A stretch of DNA of 64,000 nt from Tribonema minus. Taxonomy: Eukaryota > Sar > Xanthophyceae > Tribonematales > Tribonemataceae. Shown piece after piece: positions 13,346 to 37,123 of the stretch. The notes below the pieces were generated by a model. The model was not told the origin of the DNA, made no database searches, and saw only the letters and a program-made list of their open reading frames with translations. The translations under genes and the position numbers were made by a program. The stretch is taken from positions 186,001 to 250,000 of the forward strand of contig JAFCMP010000033.1 of assembly GCA_017506865.1 (NCBI GenBank). Direction: 5' to 3'. The first letter of the stretch is position 1, and every line of letters begins with the position of its first letter.

Positions 13346-13763
13346 AAGCTTGCTAACTTATTGAATCACAACGCATTCCCAGCAAGTATCTGCTATTAAA
13401 AAGCGGGAGCTCAATTTGGGCTGGGGTTCGGTGACATAAAACAGAGTTGTGGTACGCTGCGTGCGCTCTTTTGCGACCTCACGCACGCAGCCACACGTAA
13501 AAATTCGAGTCATCTACAACTTCAACTGAGGTTCTTTGAACTATGCTTTCAGTGAGAAGAAGTTCAACTCACGAAATAAAGATCCAGACGGAGAGCAGAG
13601 CTTACAGCTCAGCTGTACACATGTCAAGCAGCAACAAGTGCCGACAACCCCTGGCAAGTTCGACGAACTTGTCTTGTTCAAACCTTTTTTTTTTTCTCAC
13701 GAAACTTCAATTTTGAAGTTCTCTGAATCCACCCAAACTCTGAGCCAGAGCAGAGCAGCAGCA

Positions 13764-15232
13764 TGGTGCAGACAAGGGCTATGAGGAGGAGGGCGATTGC
13801 GGACACGCAGCCGCTACTCGAACCAGCGCTAGCTCAGCACATTCTTACCTTCCTTCGCCCATCACTCATGTCAGGAGCACGTGCCGCGTTCTTCGAAGCG
13901 CCATAGATTCTCACCAGGCGGAGCAGAGGCACCACACAATGGCTTCAGATTCTATTACCAGCGCTTCGCTCATCGACTGGGCGCTCTGCAATGGTCTGCA
14001 ACCGAAGCTGGCGCAGGAGTCATGCATCCGCTGCGGCAACCTCGATGGCCTTCGCCGGCTTCGCTCGATATATGGTCATGACTTGCCACTGGCTAAAGAG
14101 CATGGTCGGCTCGCTGCCTGCGGCGGGCACCTGGACCTCCTACAGTTTCTACGGCAGAGCGGCTGCTCTTGGAGTGAGATCACATGCATGGAGGCCGCAA
14201 GGAGCGGGCAGTTGGGGGTACTGCAGCGGGCTCGTGAGCACGGGGTGTCCTTGGAGCGAGTTAACGTGCTCAGCCGCTGCAGAAGCAGGGCAATTGGAGG
14301 TACTGCAATGGGCTCGTGAGAACGGGTGCCCTTGGAGCGAGTCGGCGTGCTCAGATGCTGCCAAAGGAGGGCATTTGGAGGTACCGCAGTGGGCTCGCAC
14401 CAACGGGTGCCCCTGGAATCAGTATACGTGCGTTTCCGCTGCACAGGGAGGTCATTTGGAGGTACTGCAGTGGGCTCGTGCCGCCGGGTGCCCTAGTAGC
14501 GTGTTGACGTGCTCATCTGCTGCACAGGGCGGACACTTAGAAGTGTTGCAGTGGGCTCGCGCCAATGGGTGCCCGTGGGGCGACCAGACTTGTGCGTTCG
14601 CTGCAGCAGGAGGGCAGCTGGACGTACTGCAGTGGGCTCACGCCAACGGGTGCCCATGGAATGAGTGGACGTGTTCGTCCGCTGCACGCGCAGGGCGTTT
14701 AAACGTATTGCAGTGGGCTCGTGCAGAAGGGTGCCCCTGGGATGCAGACGTGTGCTCAAACGCTGCCCGCTGCGGTCATCTGCACGTATTGCAGTGGGCG
14801 CGTGCCAACGGCTGCCCTTGGGGCCCCTCAGTGTGCAGCGCTGCCGCGGGCTCCGGGCATCTGCATGTTCTGCAGTGGGCTCGCGCCAATGGATGTGGCT
14901 GGGACGAGGGGACATGCTCAGGGGCTGCACTGGGGGGCCATCTGGAAGTGCTGCAGTGGGCATGTGCCAACAGTTGCCCCCCGCACGAAGAAACTTGCCA
15001 CTATGCTGCCGGTTGCGTTGAAGTGCTCAAGTGGGCCCGCGCCAACGGGTTCCCGTGGGACTCGCAGACATGCGCCTTTGCAGCACAGTTTGACGAGCTT
15101 GAGATCCTTCAGTGGCTTCGCGCCAACGGTTGCCCGTGGGACTCCGAGACCTGCAGACAGGCAGAACTCGAAGGACACCTGGAGGTGCTGCAATGGGCGC
15201 TAGCCAATGGTTGTCCGCCACATGATGCGTGA
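13764..15232 (+). pseudogene. ankyrin-like repeat gene, copy 1, two frame breaks
   Basis: The ATG at 13764 starts MVQTRAMRRRAIADTQPLLE followed by an F-box-like segment (LAQHILTFLRPSLMS) matching copy 2 at 31352. The body is an array of roughly 27-residue units of the type LEVLQWARANGCPW, then about six residues, TC, and AA..GH, running to the stop at 15230-15232. Such units form ankyrin-like helical stacks that usually mediate protein binding. Compared with copy 2 and with its own repeat rhythm, the frame changes near 13870 (one base short after ATGTC) and near 14240 (one base extra in a G run). The last ten or so units form one clean frame. Either these are real lesions or assembly indels. 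A CAG/GTGAGA site just after the stop suggests a 3' UTR intron. Confidence 0.75.
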
Positions 15233-16295: not shown

Positions 16296-19170
16296 GTAAG
16301 TGGACACAACACCCATGCATCAAGTCTCTACGCTTCTAGGCTATGCTCCACCAGATGTGGTGGACATATATTCTGTGCGGCATATAATGCAGACTTGCAT
16401 GCATTGCACATTGAAGTAGGCATTACTGTGTTTGCTGCCAGCGCTGCACTGTGGCCATCGCATGCCGCTTCCTCAAGAGTTGGCATCGTGCCCGTGCATA
16501 TATATGTATACACATCTGCAGTGCGGGAAGCTGCAACACCAGCAGTCAAACCTGCTGATGGCTTCGTGCTGATGATGACGTACGAGCCTGAAGCTGACTG
16601 CGCTTGATAACCGCATGTTCCTTATGGTTGAAGGCCGCAAACAAGCATGCAACTCTTTGGTGCGCACATTGTGGGTTGCAGCTTTCTACTTTGAAGCGAT
16701 TAGCATTCAGGAGAGTACCCGCACATTCCTAAGCGGACCCTAATGTGACTTCACTCCCTGCATGTGCCCTTTGTCAACAAGGTGGATGAAGCACAGCCGC
16801 TCCGTACTGCATACCACAGGGCTGGAGACAGCCACACCATACATACCACCAGCCTACATCCAGCCATTTTCCGGCTTCCTGCAAGCGGCGCACTGGCAGG
16901 TGCTGCACTGGCCAGGTACAGTTTGTCACTTCATGTGCTCACATCCAGTCCATCCGTGGTAGTTGTGCATTGGCTACCACTGCACCGGTCAGCATCTGAG
17001 CCGGCAGGTGAACTTCAGATTCTGAAGACACACTGCAATAGGTGACAGATATGATATCGCTTGCTCCATCTCCCACTGATTCGCACAACAGGTGTGCCTG
17101 GAGTGCTTTCGCTATGTTATGTCTACTCTTGGGGTCCCGTTGCCACATCGCCAATGTTTGGGTAGAGCTTGAGGGTAAGACCACTCTGAAGTTGCCTGTG
17201 TCGCTGGATGTTGCTTGTCTGGAGCTTCATGCCTGGAGGTTTGATGCCCATATGCCATGGCAGGCTTCTCATTGGTTGACAGGGTCTATACACAAGATTC
17301 CAGACGCAACTCACCTAAATCCATGCAGCATATCATGCTGCATAAGCTGCATATGCAATGCATACCATATCTTTGTAAACTGCTGCTAAAGCTTGGTTGT
17401 GTTCGCTGCAACACAAACCGGTAGGACTCTGACTTGGCAACTGCAGTAACCTGTTGAGGTTGCAATGGCAGCGATCTTGTAAGCATATGCTCTCTCCTGC
17501 AGGAAGGCATACAACGCTGGGTGGCCCATGTCTCGCTGTAGGAATGGGGCTCATAGTGCATTTGCATAAGCTGAGCATCAGTTCAAAGGCCCGAAAGCAG
17601 CAACGCCTAGTCACCATGCCTGTTTCAACTTTGCACAATAACTTGATCATATTTCAACCAGGCAGCATGCTTTGACATGTGATGTGATCTTCAAGTGAAC
17701 TTTTGACGAACAAAACGATGTTTTGGTGTTACTGCTTGATCATGTATACTGTAGGACTGAGAAAGTGATCAATTATGACATCATCACAAACATGACGCCA
17801 TCTTGAGTTTGTAGGCGCGCAACGGCTGGTTGCGTTGACATGTGGATCAATGGTGCATGTGTTGATGAAATACTTCAAGACCTAGCGGCTATAACATTTG
17901 GAAATACGATGTGCAACAGCAATAGCCGTTGAAATGGCCCAGTGGCGCAAACTAGACTTATCACTGTAGCCAGCAGATGACTTGAATTCTGAAACAAGTA
18001 TCGTTTACATCAGGCGCCACTGTGCACCACTTCATGAGTGCACTTTGCACAACATGCATGTTTCCGGGTGATGCAAAGCTGGCACCAACGCCTTGTTGGA
18101 GTGCAAACCTGCAAAGATCCATCAGCGGACGCAACGCCAGTAGGTCATTGGTTCAGACACCGCTTTTTAGCGCGTGTATTGCTGCCTGCGCGCGCAATTG
18201 GTGGGGCGCAACCCCGATGAGGTGCGGGCGACAACGCAAGATCTTTTCTTTCGGTTGTTCATGAACACGTTGTTGATGTGAGGAACGATGGTGATGAACT
18301 GGTTTCCACAATATTGACCCAGACGTTGTCCGTTGTCTGCAGGGAGCTTCAACATGGGCGCGCCACAGCAGCAACATTCAACAGAAGTGCAATCACCATA
18401 GGAGACTTGCCGCAGCACAAAGGCAGGCCAACACACTCTTTTAAGCTGAATGTAGCCTGCGTCAGTGATGTATTTGTGCATTGCCTAGCGCGCTGTACCC
18501 AGTCAGCTGCATGCACGGTCGCAAAAAGTGCACAGATGCCTGTGTGCCGAGGGCTTGACGCGCTAGCATCGGCATTTATACACCACGCAGCAGCACTCGC
18601 GAACATTGTGCTCCCTGCTCCTCACGCTGAACATGGCAATACTTTATACATGGTAGATGAGCAATGCCATGACGGGCCTTCAAGTCGTCGGGCCAACACA
18701 ATGAGGTATGAGATATCATGGCTGGTGCATACTTCGAAGATCTATGCATTTGGAATGCTATGTGGTGGACCCAGAGCCGCTCCAAGTCTGTGTACAAGAC
18801 CCATGCCTACGGCACGCCATCATGGCATCATCGTGATGATGTGACCCTGAACAGTAGCACCATACGTGTCTGCGCGATACGCCATACATGAATGCGGTCC
18901 CATTCTGTTCACATGTGCTGCAGCACACCTCGCTGATGTCTGCATGTGCCACAGTGGCTTTCTTGCCTGTGGTTCGCCACACTTTTCAGGCAGTGCCTCA
19001 TACCAGTGATGTTTGGTATGCATGACGTATCTTTGAGACATTTGCTTCCAATGATAAAGTTGCTGCTGTTAGAGCGTGTATGCACACATCTTTTGAGCCC
19101 ATAAGGTGGACCACTGCTGATATGTTCAAATACTCTTCAAGAGGCGACTCCAGATGTTCTCATGCATCAT
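16296..19170 (+). other. rest of duplicated segment, no gene assigned
   Basis: The sequence is conserved with 33291-35970. A block at 16390-16480 reads ADLHAL then EVGITV and ALW in both copies, but the second copy soon loses the frame and about half the differences alter amino acids. Other frames such as 18278-18844 are open in one copy only. I read this as decayed or non-coding. Confidence 0.45.
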
Positions 19171-20005: not shown

Positions 20006-20015
20006 GGGGTCAGAC

Positions 20016-20078
20016 CGAACCCCATATTTGCGCCCGGCGGGCGCACACAATTGTCTGCGCCCGGGGGGTCAACCCCCC
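20016..20078 (+). repeat. left terminal inverted repeat of the MULE
   Basis: It begins CGAACCCCATATTTGCGCCC and matches the inverse of 30455-30517 at all 63 positions. It also contains its own short palindromes around GCGCCCGGCGGGCGC. Confidence 0.95.
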
Positions 20079-20447
20079 GCTTGAGGTGCCATGAAGTTGC
20101 ACGTACTTGAGACTAGCCACTGGTGTGTGTGGTATTGCCGAAAGTGCCCGTATGGACTGCCCTGAGCCTGTCAACGAGCCCTTGGAGGGGCAGGTGAGAC
20201 GATTTGCGACAGCACCCTTCAGGACTGCTGCAGCAGCTGTTGCTGTCTGTTTTCATACATCCTGCTGCGGCACTCGCCACGCAGGAGTTCGCCACGCAGG
20301 AATAGCCGTCGTACACCTTCGCGTATCCAATATTGCGCGCCAGCCTGCGTTCAACGTTGCTGCGACACCAGCCCATCATCCTGCTCCACTTCTACTCGTT
20401 GGCAGTTGGTCCCACAGTAATAATACAGCCCTCACCCGCGTTCGGCG

Positions 20448-23400
20448 ATGTCTGACATGTCTGACACAGCCTCCTCGTTGCTCGTGATGCTTTCAATATT
20501 TATGACACAGGTCATTGCGGAGCTGCTAAACAGACGCTTCAATACTTCACAGGAAGCGTTGAGCGCAGTCAAGCCATTGGCTGCAGCTGCTGGCTTCGTC
20601 GCCTTAATGAGATCAAAGCATGCCAACAGCTACGACATCTACTGCAACCGTGCGGGAAACCCCCCTGTGAAGCGGTCAGATCAATGCCCAGATGTCAAGG
20701 CTCGGTCAGTAAAGCCTTGCATCAGGTGCGAGTGGCGGTTGAAAGTAGTGCTTGAAACCTTTGTGGAGAACTCACAGCATGCCAACATTGGCCCCCAGTG
20801 GCGTGTGAAGCTACCGGCCAACAACACCCCATGCTCCTTCAGGGAGGGCCACAACCATGACTTTGCCGTGCTTGCGGGATCACCACCACCATCTAATGCT
20901 GGGCGCATCATCACCAAAGCAGAGCTCACTGAAGAGATCATTTCATGTGTGCAGGCCCTGTGCGTTGCGCCCAACATGCGTGGCAAAACGCTGCAGCGTG
21001 CTGTAGTCAGCCTGTATTTTGGTGGTGACTTTGCTGCAGTCTTTGACCAGCCTGCCCTTCATGTGCTCAACAACACGGCAGCAAAGGTAGCAGATAGAAT
21101 TGCCTTCACAACAGGTGACTGCCAGGAGTTCATCAAACAGCTCGGCGCAGTGCAGAAAGCTGGAGGATACGCGGAATACGAGTTAGCGGACGACTGCTCG
21201 TTCAAGCGTGCTTTCTGAGCGACCCAGGACCAGGTTGAGAGGGCGATGGAGTTTGGCTTGGATGTCATTCAACAGGTATGCACCTCTGTGTTTTGGCTTT
21301 AGAACGGTGCAGATCCAAGCAGAATGGGGCAATTATCCTCGCCGTCAAGTGCCCGCTACCAAATAGGTTGCAGTATTTCTGGCTTGGCCCGCCATTGCGA
21401 TGAATTGATCATGGCTCGGTACAAGTCAACTGCAGTACTGCCAGAGACAAATACTGTTACAGTGTGAAGGTGGCAAGTACCTTGCACGATGCCTTACCAA
21501 TACAAGTAGTGGCGCAAGCATTCCTATGCAGCATGAATTGAATAACTTTGTATCTTTCTTTGCTTGCTTTTCATCATGCAGTTGATTCCAATGAAAAGAG
21601 ATGACTTTGATGATGTCCATTCATTGTTTACCCGCAACAGCAACACCAAGCAGCAGCTTCAATACTAATATGAATGCCGCAATTGAAATGATTTTGTATA
21701 CAAGGGTTAACAGCAAACGCCAGAAATAGTGCCTTCATCATATCTTGAAGTTGTGAAACTCGTGCATTGCATGCCTTTGCTCTTTTTACCGCGCGGAGCA
21801 GGTTTACCAACAGCTTTCTTCTTGCCCAATCGACCTTTTCATGACATGTGATCAGGAGTTTGTTGCTTTACAAACAAACTGAACGAGCACTTTTCAGTAT
21901 CTGATGATAATGATAGCTGGACGTGCACTTCAAGTTCTTGGAGTATGTGTACGGGCGTAATCACTTTCTGGAGCTGCTGCTGGAGGACAAAAAACGTTGT
22001 GAGCCTTGAGGGCATTAGAAGTCATGGCAAATACGTGTGCGTAATCAATCTCATAAATTTTTGTAAATGAGAATCAATTTGCATTTGGCGCCTGAACTCG
22101 TGGCCAGGATTGTCATGTCTTGTGGTTCGTTGTCATCATGCGACACTTTGTTGCGTCACCTGCCTGTCACCTGCCTGTGCTCACTGTATGGATTGCAGGA
22201 CTGCACTTTTGGAACGAACAAATATGGGCTGGCGCTGAGCATCATCGTTGGGGTCAATGGTGACAGCAAGTAAGTGTGTTCTTTCAAATTATTTGCATGC
22301 ACCTATATGGACAAGATGTGATGTAATCTGTGCTGTGGTCATATTGTACAGGGCTTTGTGTCATGCTGTGCAATTACAGGCTGCATCACCTATCATGTTC
22401 ATGTTCACCGGTGCTGATCAAGATACAATTCTTTGTGCTTGTCTGCGTGTTTCCAGGACGCGAATGTTTTGCCAGGCGCTGCTGGAACGTGAGGACACGG
22501 AGGCGTTTTCGTGGTTCTTTGTCCACTATGTGAAGATGGTCGGCGGCCACTATCCGTCCGTATGTTTCACAGACAGGTACGCCAATTTCAGGTGATACTG
22601 AAATTTAGTAGAGTGGGACGAGCACCTCTGCTGCTTCAGCAATTACCCTCTCTATAATGTGCCCAGCAATGATGTTGCGATAACTGTGTCATTGCTGGAT
22701 TTTGTGTTCGGTTGCAGAGATGCGGCAGCGGAGGCAGCCATGACCTTGGCTTGGCCTGGCACTGTCCATCTTATCTGCGAATGGCACTTCTTCAAGAACA
22801 TCAAGGAGATGCTGAAGGGGAAGCTGGGGGATGCTTGGCAGGCAAGTCAGCATTCGTTCAAGTCCATGTTTGTTATTGGCAAGGTTATCAAGTCAAGCCA
22901 TAGGTGTGAAAGCTCAAGCATGTGAACGGAATCAACAGTGTAAGTATCCTGGATACAAACTTTACCAAGAAGCTAGGCACATCGCAGCACAGGAGGTGCG
23001 CAGATGTCTTGTGTCATATGTTGCCCTGTCTGACTAGGTCCACCTCGATTATTGTGCGTGTAGGTTGTGCCTGCACATTGATGTGGGTCGCTTGCACGCC
23101 ATGTGTACAGTCGCTCAATCAAATACCATGTGCGTCTGCGGTGGAGGTTTCAATGTGCAATGCAGAGCGAGTAGGTGTTATCATTATGTACAGAAGATGA
23201 TCTCTGTGCCAAACGTATCGACACTGCGCTTGTAGGTTTCTCAAGGTACGGTTTTGAGGCCTCTGCCAAGCATGAGTAGCAAAGCAGCACAGCCATACCA
23301 CAAAGCACGCGTCCATGAAGAAGTGTCCTGCAGAAGATGTGATGCAGTCCACTAGCATGGTCTGTGCGGACAAAGCAGTAGCGCCTTTCTGTAGCAGTTG

Positions 23401-26400
23401 TGAAGAAGCTGGCATGTGTCAGCCAAGCTGCTTGTGCACCTTTGCATTGCCAATGTGTACGTACGTAGTAGTAAAGTCTTCAAGCTCGCAGGACTGACGA
23501 AGAAAGCTATGCTCATGCACACATGCTCACAGTTATGACGGAGCTGGAATAAGAGCGGCGTGGTGGGCTTGTGTGCTATCGTCCACCTTGCAATGTCACA
23601 AAAGCTTTCAGTGTGGGCTGCGGCGCTTGCACACAGGCATACATCACACCATTTGCAGCTTTCATCAAGCAAACAAGGCGGGACAGCACATAGTGCATGC
23701 ACGCATAAAATGCCAGGTTGACTTGTGCATGCTGCATGCAGTAAGTAGTATGCTGAAAATGCGGTGTCACCAAACCAACAACAATAGTTACCTGCAGGCC
23801 TCGCTCAGCCCAAACGCAAGCTTGCAGTGCAAATGAATTCAAGGCACTTGTGCTATAGGGAAGATCACTCTGTCAGTCTGAGTTTATTGAAGTTGAGTAC
23901 TATTATGGTATTGGCCTGTCTCATCCGCTTCGGTCAATCACTTGTTGGTCGAATCTAGTTCAACTGCAATTGTGAATGTTCTGCAGTGATATTGGAGTTG
24001 AGGTAACTTGAGATTAACAAAGAAATGGCGCAAGTAAAGTAAGATATCACACAAGCAACCCGTTAGGCGCAAATATGGGGTGCAATCACACAAAAATGCA
24101 TATTAGGGATTACTCAACCACCCAGATATAATAATCCATACATGCCATACATGCTTGAAGACATACTACAGGATTGATATCAACTTCAACGTTGCGGTAG
24201 TCAGCAGGTGACAACGGGCGACATGTGACATTACCTAGCTTCAATGATACTTGGCATTAGGGACCGTACATAAAGCGATGGTCTAGGTCGCATTTGCGCT
24301 TTCAGGGTGCGCAATTGGTCTGACTGAGGCCTCTTCCTTGATGTTCGCAGATGTTCAGGAGCCTTATGCAGCGCGCATCGCGTGCTCCTACGGAAGCCAG
24401 TTTTCAGGGGGCGTGGAAGGGACTGTTGGACGCCCTATTGGATGCTGGCGCCAGCGATGACGATGTCATGAAGTACCTCAACGACACGATCTACCCCATC
24501 CGGGAGCGCTGGGCATTCTGCTATCGCCTTGGCGTCCTCACCCTCGGCATCAACTCTACTCAACGTTGCGAGGGGTACTTTGGCATCCTGAAAGCGGAAC
24601 TGTTGAAGGTCACCACGCTCTGCCACCTGAAGCAAACGCTTGAAAATATCACTGCCAGGTAAGAAACCGGCTGCTACAAGCGGATAATCATCTGCCTTCC
24701 TCAGGGTGTTGCTGCACGCGTTGGTCATGGCCAGATATCACAGTGCACTGTGCTCAGTGACTACAGTTTAAAATGTTTGTATACGCGATGCTCTTTTGTG
24801 GATCAGGCCGATGCTAGTGAAATCCAAAATCTCATGACATGTCATATCTGTTTCATTTGCATGTGTCCTTTGATTACCTGTACAGAAGTGGTTTGACTCC
24901 GCTCACTTCGATGCCTTTGTCGCTCTAGGTACACCTCGGAAGATCATCTGTACATGGACGCCACCGTTCGCACGGCTGCTTATGACGTAGCTCTGGAGGG
25001 CATGGACTCCTGTCTGCAAGCCATATACCGCAACCTACTGCTTGTGGCGCGGCAAGACGGCACCTACCACTGCTTCAAGTCTCTTGTGAGCCAAGTGCGG
25101 TCTGCAGATCGGTACTCTGTCAGGACGTGTGCACGGGAGAGCGTGCTGACCGTGAACAGCGATGCTGGTGAGCTGCAGTAAACCTCAGTACATTCCATCA
25201 CTCCATCTCTCAAGACACACCATTACTTCAACTTCAAGCACTTTTGAGGTTAACGACCAGCAATTGGCAGCTCAAGGTGTGTAGGCTTCAAGTGTGCATG
25301 AGGGTAGCTGTTGATGAGCGAAGTATGTTGAGCAAAGCATGTTGTATTCACCACAACTCCTTCGCGTACAGTTGTAGGTGTCAGTTGAAGATTCTCTAAG
25401 CTCAACGCAATTCAGTGCATAGCAGTTGATTCAGTCCACAGTGTAGAATGTGAGGCACCAGCTGCACACCAAAACTCCTTTCTGTATGGGTCACTGCAAG
25501 ATTCTCTCAGCTTGAACGCAATGCAGAATGGCAACTGAGAACGTCCAGTAGTGAAGTAACCAGGGCAGAAGTGTCATTGAGGCTGGGGGAGAAACCCCAG
25601 CAGCCCAGCTGAGGCCTGAGGGCAGCGGCAATCTACTGCCATTAGTGCACTGAGCATGTGCATATCAAATCCGCAGCACTGCAACTGTAACCAGGCCAGA
25701 TGCATTCATTCCAGTCCGTCACCTCTAGCTAGTCCCAGCAGTTTTATTGCAGTACTTTGTTGCATCAGATTCTGATGCTGGTGCCTTGCAGGTTCTGTTG
25801 TTTGGCGTCATTGCCAAGCCCGCGTATGCCACAGGCTTGTAGACTGCAGAAGCCGTACCATCACCACGTCATTGCGTATTCTTTTCTCTCATTTGCCTAC
25901 GAAGGAGCTGTAGTGTGTGATGCGGCACGTCAGCACAGGGTCATCATGTCAACTGAGGGGGGGAAGGGGGGGTCAGGGTCTTCAACTCTTGGTATGATGA
26001 GTCCGGATAAAATCATCTACATGCGAGCGCACACAACGCACATCAGTGAAAAGTGTCCAATGATAACATGAAACCCATGGAACCCACATGTGCAAATGGA
26101 CTCTAGAATGTGGCTTGCATGTGTTCAACTGAGTATGGTGGCATACAAGAACTGTTACATAGATTAGTCAAGGCGTCCATGCTTGACCGGAAGGATTGAC
26201 ATTTCTAATTACCATGGTGCAGATCATACCAGCGTACATATGAACATGGGCGACTGTAGGACAGGCAGGTATTTTGTAAAACTCAGCACTTCTCGTCAGG
26301 CCCATGATGCACTTACCAGACTAGAGCCAAAAGCACAAGTGACACCTCAGGCACAAATCTCAATTCCACTCATCCGCTTATTTTCCTAGACAAAGGTGTT

Positions 26401-27794
26401 CGCTACACAACCACCATCACCATGTTGTCAGTCCCAGCAAGTGCACATGACGTAGGCAGAAGATGTCATAGCGCTGCGTGCTTTTATAGGAAAAGTTGAG
26501 AGCTCATATGCCAGGTGCGAATGCAGAACTAGTTGACAATGTCCATTGTTGCATGTATGACCTTTCATCGAGCTCACCCTTACTGCATACCCTCCTTTGC
26601 AGACGCTGAGGTCGCATCCGAACTCGAGCCTGATGCGCCACTCGATGAAAACGACACCAAGCGGGCCAGCATTATGATGCTGCACAGCATTGTGCAGGGG
26701 AGCTCAGCGTTTGAGTCACACCAATGGTTCACAGTGGAGCCAACCCTTGGCCGCATGTGCCATGACGTCGTCATCGCCATGTCCGGCGCTGCACTTTGCA
26801 GCTGCCTAGAGACAACGCGCACCGGCATGCTCTGCAGGCACATAGTGGCCTGTCTGCCGCATGTACCTGTCGGCACTGTGGGAGGGGGGGCCGAGGAGTC
26901 TGATGAGGATTCCCGTGACGATGCTGGACACAATGGCGCAGCAGCACCGGCCCGTCGCCAGGTAGCTGTGACGCTGACCATGGCGGAGGGTCAGGGGCTT
27001 GGGCTCATCTTTGACTTTTCAGCGGCGCATCCGACGCAGTCAAGGTGAAACAGTTTGTCAGAAGCAAGGCGGCGCCAAGGGTCAAACTGCCGGCAGAGGC
27101 AAGTGGCCTAATTCTCATTGGCGATGTGATTACGGCAATTGATGGGACACCCTTGAGGTGCTTGTCGACAGACAGCGCCAAAGCAGTGATCCAAACCGCG
27201 CGCACGGCAAGCCCAATGCAGACGATCCTGACTGTGCTCAGGACTAGTTGTGCGGGGGGGTGCAGCGCGAACACTGACGCGCTGAGCAGCGTAACGTCGA
27301 GCGCAGCAGCAGCAGCCAACCGTAGAATGCATGTAGCACGACCTGTAGCGCTGGCTGTCTTACGGAACACACAGCGCCGTTGGCTGCGTCCATCTGTGGA
27401 CTTGACAGCATTTTGCATAACCAATGGTGATGGTCAGGAAGTTGTGCTTGCCAAGGTAGTGGCGCTTGCTGCCCAGCGGTATGCAGCAGCAGCAGGTGGT
27501 GTTGTCACCGCCAGTGCGAACAGCGATGAAGCAGTGGCACCTGAGGCCTTGCCTGATAATGCTAGTGTAATCCACGCAAATGTTTTTGCACTTTTTAGAA
27601 AGCTCTGCCAAGACCTGAAAGCAGTGCCACCTCACCAGGCATTGCAGCTGGCTAAGGATCTGTGCAAGATAGGTCGCGACAGGATAGATGGCGTTGTTCA
27701 CGATCCTTTGGTTGTGCACAAGCGGTCTCACAAGCCTCTTAAGAAACGTGCCAAGGACAGTAGCCGTGGGGGCATTAGCAAGAAGCTCAGGTGA
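20448..27794 (+). CDS. MULE transposase with SWIM finger and PDZ domain
   Basis: The transposase cuts and joins DNA at the element ends. Exons: 20448-21275, 22199-22269, 22457-22576, 22718-22841, 24351-24658, 24929-25167, 26603-27794, with matching phases, about 960 codons. Order: FAR1-like DNA-binding domain (CIRCEW, then GHNHDF); DDE core with first D in DCTFGTNKYG, second in FTDRDAAAEAAM, CEWHFFKNI, and E in NSTQRCEGYFG; SWIM finger CSC, nine residues, CRH; then a PDZ-like domain (GLGLIF, then GDVITAIDGTPL, then ILTVLR); and a basic tail. The fourth intron starts with GC (22842). A TGA at 21216-21218 interrupts exon 1, where the frame resumes at once and relatives usually have a bulky residue (TGG to TGA is likely). 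The frame also shifts by one near 27015-27035 inside the PDZ part. A source copy elsewhere may be intact. Confidence 0.85.
24066..24081 (+). repeat. internal fragment of the MULE terminal repeat
   Basis: GGCGCAAATATGGGGT matches the right terminal repeat (30499-30514) over 16 bases, in the middle of a transposase intron. It could be a relic of a nested relative or an internal binding site. Confidence 0.6.
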
Positions 27795-28311
27795 AGGCGT
27801 CGTCTCATGTGACAACGTGAATTATTATGACTGTTGCCTTACGATGTCATCTGTGTTCTGCCACTGCTGTTCAAATCAATGCCACTCAAGTCTAGCATCA
27901 TAGTTCTGTGCATTTGCCATATGACGTTGCTGACAAAGTGTCATGTCATCATGCATATATTAATATCGGCACTAGATCGGATGCGCTGCCGTTGTGACAG
28001 CAGCGTATGTCTATGCAGTTTGCCCCGGAGTAGGTGGTCACGCCTACAAGATCATGCCTGCGAATCACCTTAGCTTCGAACAATCCACCGACAGCCTGCA
28101 TATAGCGCAGGTCGCTGCTTAGGTGTTTACGCGAACGGCAATTCAGTAGCTTGCTGACGCAGCAGATCAGGTTGTGCATGAATCAAAGTCATTGGGTGAT
28201 CACTTCATCGCAACGGCAACAATGCACAATGAAGTCAAGAATTGCACTGTCATGGCAACATCAATAGCCTGGTAAAATTCTGTACATTAATAAAATCAAG
28301 CTCAGGCTTAC

Positions 28312-30350
28312 TGCTGGCGAGCAGCAGCAGTTTCCTGTAGCGAACTATGCTGAGCAGCACCTCCGCAACATGCGCTCCGTCAATACTGTCAACCCGGGTG
28401 TCCTGCGCATTTTCCAGCTCACGACGTACTTTCACCCCTCTGGGTGCCACACATGGCAGCCTGCCCTGTGTTGAATGTTTACACCATGCAAGCCTGACGG
28501 TGTTCCTGTGGACAACAAGCAACGTCCCACCGCTGAGTGTTATTGCGGGCATGAAATGTTGCCCTTACAATATGTTCAGTGCCAGGGGTGCAATCTGTCT
28601 GTCCTGAAAGTTTGCACATGCGCACTGTAACAGGATGCTGGCAGCCAACACCATTTGCGCCAATTCGGCACCACTTGCAATCGTTGTGAATTTGAGCAGA
28701 CACATCATGTAAAACCTCATGCTTCTGTGGTGCCGGTAATCAGATACTATGCAAATGAATCAATCGACTGCCTACAATTACTGCATGACTCGCAAAAGCT
28801 ACCTTCGTTGACCACAGGTGATGTCAACAATTAGGTATTTCAGCATGAAGCGGTTCATTTGCTGAATGCATGAGGATCTTCATGTGCTGCTCCTACAATA
28901 ATGATTTCACACATGAAGAACATATGAGTACTAAATTCCATAGTAAGAAGATCCCATGCTGGTTAGTGACACAAGTTGCACGCAGGCTTGCTTATGCGAC
29001 AATGCTAGCCATCACAAAAGCGCATGACTCACTGATATGCTCCAGCAAAGTCTGAGTGCACAGAGGTGATGCTAAAATTTCGTTCCATCAGATGTCTAAT
29101 TGATGCAAGCCGCTGTTTCCTTCTTGACTGTAATGGGCCCAACTCCTCACAATACTGGTCCCATGTATAGGTCATAATGGTGACCTGCAAAGTGGAGTGA
29201 AGCATCGAAGGTGAGCAGTGACACCAAGTGGCTAGCAGCTGCTGCAACAGACTTCACTATGTTGCACTTAACACAATTGAGTCGTACAATCAACGTCGCC
29301 ATTGTCTCTGTCAAGATCAAAGATAACTGCCGTCCTGTTCGGATTTACTGGGAAATAGGTCCAAAAACAAGCAGACCCTGACTAACGTAGGTCAACGCAA
29401 CCACGACATGGTCACCTGCATGATAAACTACAACGTCAGCTGACCGCACAAATGCGACGCAGTCGCATGCTGCAGCGAGCTGTCAATTGGGATCTTGTGC
29501 TACTGTCATGCGATGCAGTTTTTCAAATTACTACCTATGCTCATAAGTCAAGATTTGCAGCACTGGGCCAGCTATGCCTCTGTATCATGTTGTGCCAGAC
29601 ATGCATGGTTAATTACCACGTGTGCCACAGGCCTTGACATGACATGCTTGTGCAACAGTCAAGCATACTAAGGCAAAGATTGGTTCCAAGTATTTAACAT
29701 TAAGGCCTGTGGCATTACACTGTGGTCTTTGTGCACATATGCTGCTGTGCTGCTGCTATTGCTGCTCCTGTAGAAAGACTGTGCTGCTGCACTTCCACTC
29801 GAACGGCACCAGCAGCTACATACAGTTTATCGTTACTATGTCACAAGGGCTGCAGCAGGAGCAGCAGCAGCACCGAAGTATGATGCAGCAGCAGCTGCTG
29901 CTGCCTGCTGCACTCCGAGCTGGCAGCAACTCTGACACGGCTCTCAGACTGTACACTGCCAACCGCAAGGTGCTGTCTCGCTCTGAGAGTGCAAAACATT
30001 CGACAAGACCAGCTTTTGTAGCTAGCAACAGCAGCGGCAGCAATACCAGTTCATGAAAGCTGATATTGTGGTTGCAGGTTGAACTGCAAATTGGGTTGTC
30101 GGTTGTCGATGGGTAGAAATCCGTGCATGGCGCTATATATGGCTTCATATACATGACGAATGCACCAATATGAAACTATGCAATAATCCATGCTTCAAAG
30201 CCTCTCTCTCCAGGCACACAGATGCTACATACAGACTGGTGAAGCGAGACAGATCATAATTTTGTCGTGTGTCTTCGCCCACCTTGCTTCCGCTCCTGTG
30301 GCAATTGCCGCACCACCACGCAAGCGCATCGATAAGCCACCCTCCTCCAT
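28312..30350 (-). CDS. second MULE gene, unknown product, convergent to transposase
   Basis: I infer a spliced minus-strand gene from phase-matched pieces. Exon 30350-30283 (ATG, MEEGGLSMRLRGGAAIATGA) ends at GTGGGC in phase 2 and joins 30059 to about 29920 (FHELVLLPLLLLATKAGLVE, then RDSTLRLAVYSLRAVSELLP). Exon 29184-29033 (VTIMTYTWDQYCEELGPLQS, then RRKQRLASIRHLMERNFSIT) ends at GTGAGT and joins 28439-28312 in phase (RRELENAQDTRVDSIDGAHV, then AEVLLSIVRYRKLLLLAS), which ends at GTAAGC. A possible last exon with AVGGLFEAKVIRRHDLVG lies at about 28096-27949. The link between the second and third exons is not resolved. No domain recognised; the composition is that of a normal soluble protein. 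A captured host gene or an accessory transposition protein are both possible. Confidence 0.5.
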
Positions 30351-30454
30351 ATCTGGTGGTACGCAACTCGTGACAGCCCCAGGCTGTGCGTGGCTGTAGC
30401 AATCGGCGACGACATCGATGCTGATGCTGCACTTCAAGTGCGCACTGGGCGGGG

Positions 30455-30517
30455 GGGGGGTTGACCCCCCGGGCGCAGACAATTGTGTGCGCCCGCCGGG
30501 CGCAAATATGGGGTTCG
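30455..30517 (-). repeat. right terminal inverted repeat of the MULE
   Basis: It ends GCGCAAATATGGGGTTCG, the exact inverse of the left end. Beyond the 63 bp the two ends differ in the length of a G/C run and then diverge. Confidence 0.95.
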
Positions 30518-30527
30518 GGGGTCAGAC

Positions 30528-31351
30528 ACAGAGTTGATCAGGGTAATTACAATGGGGGAGGAGGAGGTCAGAGACGAGAGTTGATGGATGATGTGAGTGT
30601 GAGTAGTAAAGCGAGTACAAGAAAGCACCCCCCTCCTGACGGAATGGGGGGCGAGCGACCCGGAAACAGACAGCCTGTTGTGTAAGTTGCGCTTAAAGCA
30701 AGTTATCACCTCAACATTTGCTTGAATGTGAAATATGTGCATCACCTCATGTTTTCTGTTGCATTGAGATCATGTTGTACGCATGGTGCGGGGTTACATC
30801 TGCATATTGCCATTAAGCCGTCCTGCCACGTTAACACATCAACACCACCTCCAGCGCTGGGTTTTCTGGCCCTAACCCTAAGTAGCCCCCAACCCTAAAG
30901 TAGGTTTAATTAGTGTCAGGAAGTGAAACGGCTTTGAAGTAGACGATAGAACATGATACCGTGAGCCCTCGAGAGCTCTGCAGGCCGCGAAGCGTGGCCG
31001 CAGGCTTGATACTGCAATGCGATACATGCCAAGTGCCAAAACGCTGCATGCGGTCAGTGCCGCCTGCGCAGCAACACCTCGCGAGCTGGAGAGCCAGCGC
31101 CAGAATCAGCTGGCAGCTTCCTGGATGTTGCCGGAGGGTGTGCCGCTGGGAGCGGCAACAGAACCCCAGCGCGCTGATTGGTGAACGGTTTGTAGCGGCA
31201 CGCACGTACGCATACCCGGCTCGCAACGCCCAGATGCATCGGTAGGAAGTTCCTAGTGCGGAGGCTTGCGCGCGCCATGACTCGCGCCCTGAAAGGTCCC
31301 TCGCCCTATAAACTTCAACTGTAGACTTTTGGAACACAGGAGACCCATCAG
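30528..31351. other. stretch between MULE and ankyrin copy 2
   Basis: No gene recognised. It contains an interstitial telomeric tract at 30870-30900 and overlapping frames on both strands without family features. Confidence 0.4.
30870..30900 (-). repeat. interstitial telomeric repeat, degenerate
   Basis: CCCTAACCCTAA at 30870-30881 and AACCCTAAAG at 30891-30900, with a short interruption. Confidence 0.7.
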
Positions 31352-32679
31352 ATGGTGCGAAGGACCATGAGGAAGATGGCGATGGCGGGTACGCATCCGC
31401 TCCTCGACCCATTGCTAGCTCAGCAGATCTTGGCCTTCCTGCGTCCATCTCTAATGAGCAGGAGCACATGCCGCAACTTTAGATTCGCTATCGATGAGGA
31501 ACGAATGCATCACACGGTGGCGGATGCTGTTGAGAAACATCACCACTCAGTGGCTTCGGATGCTGTCGCGAGCACCACTCTCGTTGAGTGGGCGGTGCTC
31601 AACAAGCTGCAGCCGGAGCTAGCGCTAAGAACATGTATCCGCTACGGCAACCTCGACAGCTTTCGCTGGCTATTTTCGCAGTTCGACCTGCCACTACGTG
31701 ACGACTACTGTTGGCGCGCTGCCCGCGGCGGGCACCTGAAGCTCCTACAGCTGCTACGGCAGAACGGATTCCCTTGGAGCGAGTACACATGCACGGAGGC
31801 CGCGAAGGGCGGGCACATAGCCGTGCTGCAGTGGCTCGTGAGAACGGGTGCCCTTGGATCGACAGCACTTGCTCATGCGCTGCAGCGGCAGGGCAGTTGG
31901 AGGTACTGCAGTGGGCCCGTGCTAACGGGTGCTCTTGCAACCAGTGGGTGTATTTATACGCTGCACGGGAAGGGCACTTAGAGGTCCTGCAGTGGGCGCG
32001 AGCAAACGGGTGCCCGAGTGACGAACGCACATGCTCAGTTGCTGCTGGAGCAGGGCGCCTGCGCGTGCTCATGTGGCTCCGGGAGGATGGGTGCCCATGG
32101 CACGAGGACACGTGCACATCCGCAGCAGCCGCAGGTCACTTGCACGTCCTGCAGTGGGCTCGTGCGAACGGGTGTCCCTGGAACGAGGATACGTGCGCAT
32201 CCGCCGCTGAACATGCGCGCCTAGAAGTGCTGCAGTGGGCTCGTGCCAACGGATGTCCTTGGCGCGAGTCAACGTGCTCACTCGCTGCAGAGAAAGGGCA
32301 CTTCGAGGTGCTGCAGTGGGCTCGTGCCAACGGTTGCCCGTCGGATGCCTCCGTGTGCGAGCATGCTGCACGCAGCGGTGATCTGCTCATGTTACAGTGG
32401 GCTCGTGCAAACGGGTGCCCCTGGAACGAGTTCACTTGCTCAGCCGCTGCAGGGTCTGGGCACTTGGAGCTGCTGCAGTGGGCACGCGCCAATGATTGCC
32501 CCTGGGATGAGGCAACTTGCACCCATGCTGCCATTGCTGGGTGCCTGGGAGTGCTGCAGTGGGCTCGCGCCAATGGGTGCCCATGGAACTCGGACACATG
32601 CAGGTTTGCAGCATTATGCGGGGAGCATCAGGTGCTGCGCTGGGCGCTAGACAATGGATGTCCGCCACTCGCTGCGTAA
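31352..32679 (+). pseudogene. ankyrin-like repeat gene, copy 2, one frame break
   Basis: The ATG at 31352 starts MVRRTMRKMAMAGTHPLLDP, then an F-box-like segment (LLAQQILAFLRPSLMSRSTC) and an array of roughly 27-residue LEVLQWARANGCPW units to the stop at 32677-32679. F-box plus ankyrin-like repeats would suggest a substrate adaptor for a ubiquitin ligase, but the F-box reading is weak. The frame changes once, near 31832, where CAGTGGCTCG replaces the usual CAGTGGGCTCG; otherwise everything fits one protein of about 440 residues. A single missing G could be an assembly error, so the gene may be intact. A CAG/GTGAGC site follows the stop, as in copy 1. Confidence 0.8.
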
Positions 32680-33290: not shown

Positions 33291-35970
33291 GTAAGTGGAC
33301 ACAACACATGTGGATTGTGTTTCTTCCCTTCTATGGTACCCCCCACATACAGTATCAAAAGTAGTGCAAGAATGTGTACGATGCGGATTTGCATGCATTA
33401 AGTTTTGAAGTAGGCATTACTGTGCTTGTTGCCAGCGGTGCACTGTGGTTACCGCATGTCACTTCTTCAAAAATTTGACATCATGCCTATGCATCAGAGC
33501 ATGCACATATGCGAAGCTGCAACTCAACATAGCAGCCAAACCTGCTGATGACCAAGTGTGATGCTGCTGCTGGGGTCCAAGCCTGAGGCTGACTGCGCTT
33601 GATAACCGCATGCGCCTTATTGTTGAAGCCGGCAACGAGAATGCATACTTTTTGATGCACACAATTTTACGATGTGTTGGCTTGCAGATTTCTATCAGCA
33701 TGTAGGTGGATGCCCGCTCGATCGAACCCGACCTCAATGTGACTTCACTCTTTGCATGTGCCCTTTGTCAACAAGGTGGACGAAGCACGCCATTCCGTAC
33801 TGCATACCACAGGGCCAGCTGGAGACGGCAACACTATACATACATACCACCAGGCTAGATCCAGCCATTGTCCAGCGTCCTGCAAGCGGTGCACTGGCAG
33901 GCGCTGCGCTGGCCAGGTACCGTTGTCATTTCATGCGCTCACATTCAGTCCACCCATGGCTGTTGTGCATGTGGCTTCTGCTGCACTGGTCAGCATCAAA
34001 AGCCGGCAGCATCCAGGTGCGATGGTGAAAAGTATGCTTGCGCTGGCTTGCTGGTGTGAATTGCCAAGCACTGCAACATTGGAAGCACCCCGATCCCTCC
34101 CTGCTGTGACTCGTTCGGAATTGCTGCGCTGGTACGTCTACACTGTGCCACCTATGAGGAGCTATGTCACACCCTTCAGTGGCCTCGTGCGTCTGCAGAA
34201 GTTGCCAAACTGGCCCTCAAATGCCACTTGAAGTGATTCTGCACATGATATCCATTGTACATTGATGTTCTTTCAAACATGCAACTTCCATCAGTGGGTG
34301 TAGCAGCATCAGCACGGCTGTGGTCGATTGTTTGCCTGTCTCTTTTCTCATTTGCAGGCTTCATGGATTTCTGCATTCTCCCTGGACACCTTGACCGGTA
34401 AGCTTTTGTGTACGTACTTCTACGAATATTTACCTTGTCATTTGATGTGTGGCAATGAGGACAGATCGACTCCTGTGTGGTGTTCAACTTGGTCATTTTC
34501 ACAACCCAAACTGCAGTATGTAACATCATATGCTCCTCACGCCACTAGTTTGCACAATGGACGTCATATTGCCTGGTGTGCTCTTGCTACCCAATATCTG
34601 TTTTTGAGGTCCCATGCGCCAAACTTTTTAAATTAGTATTTGGGTAGAGCTTGGGGGTGAGCGCACCTTCACGTTGCTTGTGTTGCTGCAACATGCTGCT
34701 GGTCTGGAGCTTCATGCCTGCAGGTTTAATGCCGCTATGATAGTGTGGCAGGCTGCCAGGTGTACCTATGAGATTCAACACGCAATGCACCTGGGTTTAT
34801 GCAGCGTATGCAGTGCATGCCATACCATACTATCTTTCAATGTGTAAGCTGCTGCTTAAGCTTGCCTGTGTTCGCTTCATACAAATTTGGTAGGATCTGA
34901 CTTTGCAATTGTAGTAAGCTGGTGAGATTGTGGTGGCAGCAAACTTGTCAGCATATGCTGCTATCCTGCAGGAAAGCACACAGTGCTGGGTGGTCAATGT
35001 GTCGCTGCCACAGTAGTGGGCCATTCCAAAGTTCACGTGGATGAGCTGAGCATCACAAGATGGAGTCCCAAAGCAGCAAGGCCCACACATCATGCCACAA
35101 GATTGACTCAGACGTTCTCTGTTGTCTGTTGTCTGCAGAGAGCTTCAAGATGGGCGCGCCACAGCACCAGCGAAATTGTAAACAACAGTGCAATCACCCC
35201 ATGGGAGACTTGCCGCAATGCAAAGGCGACCAGCATATTCTTATGAGTTGAATGTAGCCTGCATCTGCGACGTATTTGTGCATTGCGCAGCAACACTGTC
35301 CCTGGTCAGCGGCATGCGCGGCAGTCAGAAACGTGCACAGATGCTTGTGTGCCGAGGGTTTGATGCCCTTGCATCGGGCATCTGTACACCATGGTGCATC
35401 AGCAGCATTTCCATACTTCCTTTGCCAGGGCAGAATCTCAGACATTGTGCTCACTGCTCTTCACTCTGAAAACACCCACACACCTCACAACATGGTAGCT
35501 GAGCAATGCAATACCACGACGGTTCGTTGTCGTGCCAATGCAATGCCAGACATACAAGACGGCGTGTCTGGTGCACATGCATCTGAACGCTCACATGCAT
35601 CTGAACGCTTTGTAGTGGACCCAGAAGTGTTCTGTGTATATACAAGTCACTTACCTTCGCCACGCCGAGTGACCCTGGAAAGCAGCACCATACGTTTCTG
35701 CGCAATGCACCATTTATGAATGCGATCCCATTCTGTTCACATGTGCTGCAGCACAAGTCGCTGATGTCTGCATGTCGCTTTCTTGGGTCGCCACACCTTT
35801 CAGTCAGTGGCACCTGCCAGTGATGTTCGACACATGATGAGTGCTTGAGACAGTTGCTTCCAATGGTAGATTTGCTACTGCAAGAGCTTGCATGCACATA
35901 CTTTCTGAGCCCATGTGGTGGTGGAGCACTCTTCAATTGAAGTGCTCCACAAAAGGAGGCGACGCAAGAT
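33291..35970 (+). other. rest of duplicated segment 2, no gene assigned
   Basis: It matches 16296-19170. The longest frames (33752-34231 and 35276-35719) are not open in the other copy. A near-palindrome GAGCACTCTTCAATTGAAGT followed by GCTCC lies at about 35924-35950. Confidence 0.45.
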
Positions 35971-37123
35971 GTTCAGGACATGACACTGAAAGAACATGCG
36001 CATACACTGCCCTGGTCCGGAACCGGATCAGGCATGTACTTTTTATTAATTGTCGCTCAGGGCGCGAAAAAGCCCAGATGATTGGCATCTACATGCAGCT
36101 AGGTGCACGGACAGCGAGTAGCTTGCCGCAAGCAACTACACAATACAAGCAGCGCCTGTGCAAATAGGAATTCAGAGTCCATGAGTGCCTGCAGAAAGTC
36201 TGAATTGCCAAGTGACAGATCCTGAGGATGTGTCAAGTCATAAGATTCTCACTGACACTTGAGGATTTGTTCAGCATCCCTGTAGCTGACATGGTTTAAA
36301 TGCACGCGTCGATAATGCTGGGCTGGATAGCAGCACCAGTCAAGCTCTTGCGGTGCAGCGCTTGTCAAATTATTGAGTGTGATGACGTGACTACAAGCAT
36401 ACACCGAACACCCACCCTCCAATGGGGACTTCTCATTCAGGTCCCTTAGGTTCACACCAGCACATCATCCAACAGCATCTGCTCTGCTTCCGCAACACAA
36501 CTGATTTGGCGGCCTGCAAATGCATTTTCAAGCGAGTGACATCACAATGGCAAGGACAGAGCAGGTCTTCGGCCTCAGTGAAGCACACAAGCGGAGATCA
36601 AAAGTGACTTGCAATGCGAGCAGTGACCTCAGCTCTCTGTCACCATTAGCTTGTGTGCATGTCGGTTGCAGCCACAAGAGCAGCTTCTTTCAGCAGCTGT
36701 GCTGCTGGCATGCACGAATAATGTAGCCTCGTGTGCCGTTTACACACCCTTGTCGTGCCCGGCTGCCAATGACTGTTACAGCGGGCATGCACGGTTCAGC
36801 TAGTGGATGCCGCTGAGAACAGCCTTGTTGTCGCACGTTGCCAATGTAGCTGGCGCAGCAGGTGTGTTGGCATGTCATGGGCTCGGTTTTGGCCACATGA
36901 GTCCACAAGCACCGTCGGCAGTGCTTCTGTTGTGTGTTGGCATGTAATGATGGCATCATCACCTGACCCAGTTGTACCCACAGACAAAACTGCAGGTTAG
37001 GCCCTTTTTTGCAGCAGGGACATCATACACCCGCCTCCCGCTTTCCCCAATGCTCCTCACTATCCGTGAAGGGCTACACCGGGGCCCTACACCCCCCTGT
37101 TTCAAGTGAGCGTACCCCCCCTC
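35971..37123. other. intergenic stretch, mostly featureless
   Basis: Apart from the 57-bp motif at 36035-36091 I see no gene, repeat or RNA here. Confidence 0.4.
36035..36091 (+). repeat. 57-bp dispersed motif, copy 4
   Basis: It differs from 9541-9597 at one base in 57, although its flanks are unrelated to those at 9.5 kb. It lies just past the end of segmental copy 2. Confidence 0.75.

Follow-up and report, generated by a model that had tools for sequence, protein, structure and literature searches.

A Mutator-like transposon family of Tribonema minus with a predicted PDZ domain behind the SWIM finger of its transposase

The DNA analysed here, called the window, is a stretch of 64,000 bases from Tribonema minus (bases 186001–250000 of contig C33), and the genome searches covered the 158-Mb, 554-contig assembly. 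The window holds a Mutator-like (MULE) DNA transposon of 10,502 bp at 20016–30517 (Table 1). Genome-wide DNA matches of the flanks stop sharply at window position 20016 on the left and at 30517 on the right. Long terminal inverted repeats and a target duplication of about 8–11 bp are expected of a MULE, and the window copy has exact repeats of 63 bp and a duplication of 10 bp. The original prediction had described a transposase at 26603–27794. That stretch does contain a SWIM-like finger, a PDZ region and a tail, but it is only the last recognised exon of the much larger element.

Table 1. Features of the MULE copy in the window. Exon limits are approximate and splice sites are inferred.
Feature	Position	Strand	Remarks
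Left target-site duplication	20006–20015	.	10 bp, identical to 30518–30527
Left terminal inverted repeat	20016–20078	+	63 bp exact
First recognised coding exon	20424–21291	+	By eye, a zinc-finger-like region (C..C..HxH); stop in frame near 21216
Exon with putative first catalytic Asp (QDCTFGTNKYG)	22196–22270	+	88% identical in B
Exon with putative second catalytic Asp (VCFTDRYANF)	22431–22592	+	PF10551 MULE positions 27–73
Exon with HLICEWHFFKN motif	22713–22925	+	PF10551 positions 72–99
Exon with putative catalytic Glu (STQRCEGYFGILKAEL)	24342–24662	+	58–63% identical in B and C; 71 genome rows
Next coding exon	24924–25178	+	48–49% identical in B and C
SWIM zinc-finger region (CSCLETTRTGMLCRH)	26605–26900	+	PF04434 13.2 bits, below cut-off 19.6
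PDZ domain	26968–27245	+	PF00595 above cut-off; family profiles vs PDB
Conserved C-terminal region (FRNTxxRWLRPS...) and lysine-rich tail	27330–27794	+	Aligned across subfamilies
Right terminal inverted repeat	30455–30517	-	63 bp exact
Right target-site duplication	30518–30527	.	10 bp, identical to 20006–20015

Genome searches returned 89 rows with the PDZ-tail protein and 68 with the SWIM frame. Seventeen copies near-identical to the window sequence (about 99% identity) make up family A. Sixteen of them match the right end, the exception (C47) running off its contig, and 16 match the left end, for which C191 has no match. An exact 10-bp duplication stands at the same repeat boundary in 10 of the 14 other copies with both ends read and is absent in C257, C141, C510 and C146. 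Some copies have flanks in common (C453 with C510, C464 with C47 on the left flank, and C368 with C146), and these are probably the same insertion on two haplotypes. The C146 copy combines the left flank of C368 with the right flank of C464; this may reflect haplotype duplicates or an assembly join within a repeat. A tiny derivative of less than 100 bp was also found (C445:1136966-1137120), in which the family A left repeat runs almost straight into the outer end of the right repeat.

More distant relatives fall into four subfamilies. Manual grouping of the search rows assigns 22 copies to subfamily B, of which 15 keep an open frame of 430 aa. In subfamily C, 10 copies have open frames of 614–617 aa and others have shorter ones. 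Subfamilies D and E are represented by C190 and C507. Identity to family A over the aligned proteins is 40% for B, 44% for C, 61% for D and 45% for E. In subfamily C, the PDZ is separated from the C-terminal region by a long repeat linker that is rich in Ala and Pro and varies in length (C552:162600-164400).

Just outside the element, approximately 30614–31318 recurs at 77–90% identity in more than 20 genome places. Ankyrin-repeat-like gene regions with repeats of the 'WARANGCPW' type lie on both sides, at 13744–15232 and at 31325–32679, the latter with a Pfam Ank_4 match. Outside the MULE, but in the same window, a segment of about 850–880 bases (18306–19159) recurs at 70% identity at about 35095–35974. 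A 1914-aa open frame on the minus strand (52454–58198) has an OTU-like protease motif and reverse-transcriptase-like motifs by eye, and is perhaps a non-LTR retrotransposon. Elsewhere in the assembly, C334:714136-714324 carries part of a gene for the rubisco large subunit, interrupted by a stop. Its best group of PDB matches (best E 4.8e-34) is of the red-plastid type, and another group, with E-values near 1e-17, holds green-algal and plant chains. The fragment is likely a plastid DNA insertion, and the host is probably an alga whose plastid is of the red type.

The coding blocks of the transposase, which are colinear, come from a comparison of the window with a single B copy and a single C copy, each read from overlapping loci on one contig. 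The first recognised exon has a homologous exon in B and C (41–45% identity), and no Pfam family was found in it in the window copy, B or C. PF10551, whose curated cut-off is 27.6 bits, matched the second-Asp exon with E-values of 0.026 in the window, 0.0083 in B and 1.5e-4 in C, and the HLICEWHFFKN exon with 0.0012 in the window and 3.3e-4 in B, all below the cut-off; the latter exon had no PF10551 match in C. The catalytic exons thus appear, at sequence level, to correspond to consecutive parts of the PF10551 model in the window copy and B, and to its first part only in C. A PF10551 search of the genome gave no match at E 0.001, as would be expected if introns split the core. The D, D and E motifs are conserved in this comparison. 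By MULE motifs, these residues are the putative DDE catalytic triad.

At the place named by the original prediction, the SWIM-like CxC...CxH motif and the described PDZ landmarks are present by sequence. The SWIM finger falls below the Pfam cut-off of 19.6 bits, and the best score for the family in the genome scan was 17.9 bits. Its four finger ligands are invariant in six aligned family proteins. The transposase had also been called FAR1-type. In none of the three first recognised exons scanned (window copy, B and C) did Pfam report FAR1 (PF03101), so this label is unsupported, and the true N-terminus may lie elsewhere.

Several profile comparisons point to a PDZ domain behind the finger. PF00595 matched the downstream frame of the window copy at 24.0 bits (E 5.3e-5) and the subfamily D copy at 24.2 bits, both above the cut-off of 23.2, and PDZ_6 matched the window frame with an E-value of 4.7e-5, below its own cut-off. 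The long proteins scanned scored less than 23.2 bits with PF00595: 22.9 for an open A copy, 20.6 for B, 14.9 for C and 19.1 for E2 (C122). When a profile of six family proteins was compared with all PDB sequences, the best match, 2iwn (multiple PDZ domain protein), covered the whole domain with an E-value of 1.8e-6, and 57 matches at E ≤1 lay in or overlapped the PDZ columns. Going by their names, we take most of these 57 to be PDZ proteins or carriers of PDZ domains (the names of 1ufx, 1v62, 2djt and 4xhv are uninformative). A profile of the PDZ alone, built from seven sequences, gave 23 PDB matches at E ≤0.01 (best 3e-6), all of which we take to be PDZ carriers.

Among those seven PDZ sequences, 24 of 93 columns are invariant. 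The carboxylate-binding loop, x-hydrophobic-G-hydrophobic, has an invariant Leu and Gly, and its last position is V or L. At the helix position occupied by His in class I PDZ domains, as placed by eye, these sequences have T, Q, A or V. The segment after the SWIM finger can accordingly be called a PDZ domain, an assignment that is solid as far as sequence comparison goes. An AlphaFold model of the PDZ-tail frame of the window copy, which is a half-domain modelled with no alignment, had a mean pLDDT of 35.9 and was unusable; no fold other than PDZ emerged for the segment. No Pfam family above cut-off was found in the C-terminal region that follows the PDZ. Pfam matches to HMG-CoA reductase and to the TraI N-terminal domain were below cut-off and were dismissed as chance. 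An NCBIfam scan of one open A protein and one B protein gave no match, and a scan of viral contigs with the family alignment gave 19 pattern stretches and no relative.

In the window copy, this PDZ is not in one frame with the finger. The frame at 26533–27048 holds the SWIM finger and the GLGLIF loop, and the frame at 27015–27794 holds the remainder of the PDZ, a further region and the lysine-rich tail, with the break near the second PDZ strand at about 27010–27020. With the SWIM finger in one frame and most of the PDZ in another, the earlier statement that the frame continues from one into the other is wrong. The in-frame stop in the first recognised exon is a further lesion of the same copy.

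The fusion itself holds at the level of the family. The break is present in nine of the 17 family A copies and absent in eight, and six of those eight have a single open frame of 420 aa running through SWIM, PDZ and tail (C63 and C141 are broken elsewhere). The same arrangement lies in a single open frame in subfamilies B, C and E; in D, the SWIM finger and PDZ share one frame and the tail is in another. The proposed PDZ fused behind the SWIM finger of a MULE transposase is thus borne out by open frames in the siblings and in the subfamilies, but not by the damaged window copy. It was in copies with an unbroken frame that the original prediction had asked for a PDZ, and they have one.

We also looked at relatives genome-wide. 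The 71 rows with the catalytic-Glu exon represent 68 copies, three of which are split into two rows each. A PDZ region lies no more than 6 kb downstream on the same strand in 68 of the 71 rows, or 65 of the 68 copies, counted with one chosen row per copy from the 89 PDZ-tail rows. Relatives that stop soon after the SWIM finger had been named beforehand as evidence against the fusion, and this count does not bear them out. The rows without a downstream PDZ are C28, whose contig ends about 950 bases beyond the exon, C13:269598 and C529:315768. Conversely, four PDZ places have no upstream catalytic-Glu exon (C507, C112:214816, C112:2060091 and C290). PF00595 has 62 matches in the genome, 51 of them above cut-off; by position, the transposon family accounts for 46 of all these matches and for 41 of those above cut-off, two of the 41 passing the cut-off only with neighbours in frame. 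Since this count was six-frame, intron-blind and made with a single PDZ model, host PDZ domains split by introns are under-counted in it.

Selection on the PDZ was estimated with Nei–Gojobori counts (our own script, Fisher p) in four close pairs, the partners being B2 (C112), C2 (C92) and E2. The dN/dS of the PDZ was 0.17 for A–D (p 3.4e-11) and 0.31 for E–E2 (p 2.4e-5). Purifying selection was not seen in B–B2 (0.69, p 0.4) or C–C2 (1.32, p 0.81). For the SWIM finger, dN/dS was 0.10 in A–D, 0.19 in E–E2 and 0.19 in B–B2, so that the PDZ evolved faster than the finger in all three pairs compared. The partners B2, C2 and E2 are partly decayed, with stops or broken frames, which pulls these ratios up. 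Over the longer separations, then, the PDZ is under constraint while changing faster than the finger; at two short separations no constraint is seen.

One host gene has a closely related PDZ. A 791-aa open frame at C531:361500-366500 matches PF00595 at 28.9 bits; its Pfam matches are to PDZ models only, with no SWIM or MULE match. Its PDZ is 40–46% identical to those of all five subfamilies over 80–96 aa, with BLAST E-values from 1e-16 to 8e-23. In the same comparison, the best E-value among the open reading frames of 14 other host PDZ loci was 3.7e-4 (15 host rows, C526 omitted); these E-values are relative, since the search sets were small. Because the C531 PDZ is so much closer than the 14 others, the C531 gene and the MULE lineage have likely exchanged this domain, judging by sequence similarity. 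The remainder of the C531 frame looks WD-repeat-like by eye; a search of the PDB returned mostly PDZ domains, along with antibody linkers matched by chance.

Phylogenetic trees of 11 and 10 rows (approximately 90 columns) never placed the transposon PDZs in one group apart from the host PDZ. The two best trees agree on this, as do all 200 bootstrap replicates computed for each. Forcing the transposon PDZs together was not rejected in the 10-row tree (p-AU 0.176), and the other host PDZs sit on very long branches. As to direction, the trees make donation of the PDZ to the host gene no less possible than its capture from there.

The frame-broken copies of family A form a class of their own. An exact 33-base stretch with the in-frame stop of the first recognised exon occurs at nine genome places, which are the nine frame-broken copies. 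The stop position is Trp in B, C and the two of the eight frame-open A copies read there (C13 and C547), both of which carry other small deletions in their exons. Comparing eight of the nine broken copies with seven of the eight open ones (C47 and C63 were omitted as cut or split), we found that the classes differ at 10 alignment positions over 3.8 kb and are separated in an unrooted tree by a branch with support 0.994. Copies of the broken class are on average 99.65% identical to one another, those of the open class 99.37%.

Among the nine broken copies there are seven different left flanks, and exact 10-bp duplications were found at six of them. That copies at seven sites share two lesions suggests that one twice-damaged version was mobilised in trans by transposase made elsewhere, most simply by an intact relative. 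The alternative, that both lesions are read through in the broken class, we see no reason to prefer. The spread of this class shows that an intact C-terminus is unneeded in cis; it does not show whether one is needed at all.

Taken together, these observations make it probable that the MULE transposon in the window, which contains introns, is a damaged copy, and that its family carries a genuine PDZ, placed between the SWIM finger and a conserved C-terminal region, with which the transposase docks on a partner. In such an enzyme, the N-terminal zinc-finger-like region would bind the terminal repeats, and the DDE core would cut and join DNA. By analogy with other MULEs, the SWIM finger, with the N-terminal finger-like region, may make contacts with DNA or protein. 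PDZ domains, which grip other proteins, are usually parts of host proteins. Here the PDZ would dock the transposase on the C-terminal tail of a partner, probably a host protein, and so might guide, keep or assemble it; tethering to a host protein is plausible. Broken copies would be mobilised by the transposase of an intact relative supplied in trans, and the PDZ would have been captured from, or donated to, a host gene. We also considered docking of the PDZ on the family's own tail. Usual PDZ ligands end in a hydrophobic residue. The four C-termini observed in A, B, C and E (KLR, PKS, KKT and KKR) have no hydrophobic last residue, so the idea of a self-ligand was dropped.

A bolder version, which we hold to be possible but doubtful, is that the MULE lineage captured a host PDZ, the closest being that of the C531 frame, and made it a docking part that steers transposition, and that this accompanied an expansion to most of the PDZ segments detectable in the genome. 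Somewhat less likely still, in our judgement, is that the PDZ is translated but only a passenger, a fragment captured from the host that hitch-hikes without contributing to transposition, like the inserts of MULEs that carry gene fragments. A MULE survey does note that these elements acquire host gene fragments (PMC6446971). The PDZ evolves faster than the SWIM finger, two pairs lack constraint, and a break at the PDZ did not keep the larger class of family A (9 of 17) from reaching seven sites. That class, however, also carries the early-exon stop, so its spread says nothing specific about the PDZ. Moreover, a passenger would be expected to decay at such divergence, whereas this PDZ is in frame with the SWIM finger in five divergent subfamilies, keeps its invariant columns and is under clear purifying selection in two pairs.

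The many inferred introns, and a window copy that is not in one frame, could also be read as a sign that the PDZ belongs to a separate host-like gene, or to an exon joined by alternative splicing only. This is improbable given an uninterrupted frame of 420–617 aa through SWIM and PDZ in open A, B and C, with both sides conserved. We give hardly any credence to a domesticated FAR1-like host gene family with a PDZ rather than a mobile element. FAR1/FHY3 proteins are indeed described as transposase-derived regulators, and their general layout is similar. For family A, exact repeats, distinct insertion sites with 10-bp duplications and copies that are about 99% identical refute this reading; the insertion evidence covers family A only. 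The docking transposase with a genuine PDZ remains our preferred reading.

Little is known about how cut-and-paste transposases of eukaryotes reach their partners and target sites. With a predicted peptide-binding module inside the transposase and a PDZ much like it in one host gene, there is a biochemical handle, namely to find its ligand. The family is also a likely example of a transposon and a host gene exchanging a domain.

Relative to the literature searched, the family appears to be a MULE with a new accessory domain. No published MULE with a PDZ was found in these largely open-access papers, and a record that is unpublished or under another name is possible. In the clade table of the MULE survey, the additional domains include SWIM, FLYWCH, C2H2, CCHC, PHD, OTU, SET, PMD and FAR1, and the word PDZ has no occurrence in the main text (PMC6446971). 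The nearest precedent found is a red-algal subgroup of Jittery with 'various inserts, potentially host derived' (PMC6446971).

The family resembles SWIM-bearing MULEs, such as the Jittery clade, in its split core matching parts of PF10551 below cut-off, its H-C-H motif, a SWIM-like finger after the core, long terminal inverted repeats and a 10-bp target duplication. It differs from them in the PDZ and the further conserved C-terminal region after the finger, and in having no Pfam FAR1 match in the first recognised exon. The PDZ is like those of eukaryotic proteins (PF00595; MPDZ, PTPN13, APBA/X11) in its x-L-G-(V/L) loop, GD-x-x-(T/A)AID strand, helix and closing LT strand; unlike them, it sits inside a transposase, and the class I His is replaced as described above. 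It shares its closest similarity with the PDZ of the C531 host frame, which, unlike the transposase, lacks a SWIM or MULE match. Pack-MULEs likewise have MULE ends that carry host-gene-related sequence, but in the family described here the host-related segment is fused in frame into the transposase and kept across subfamilies.
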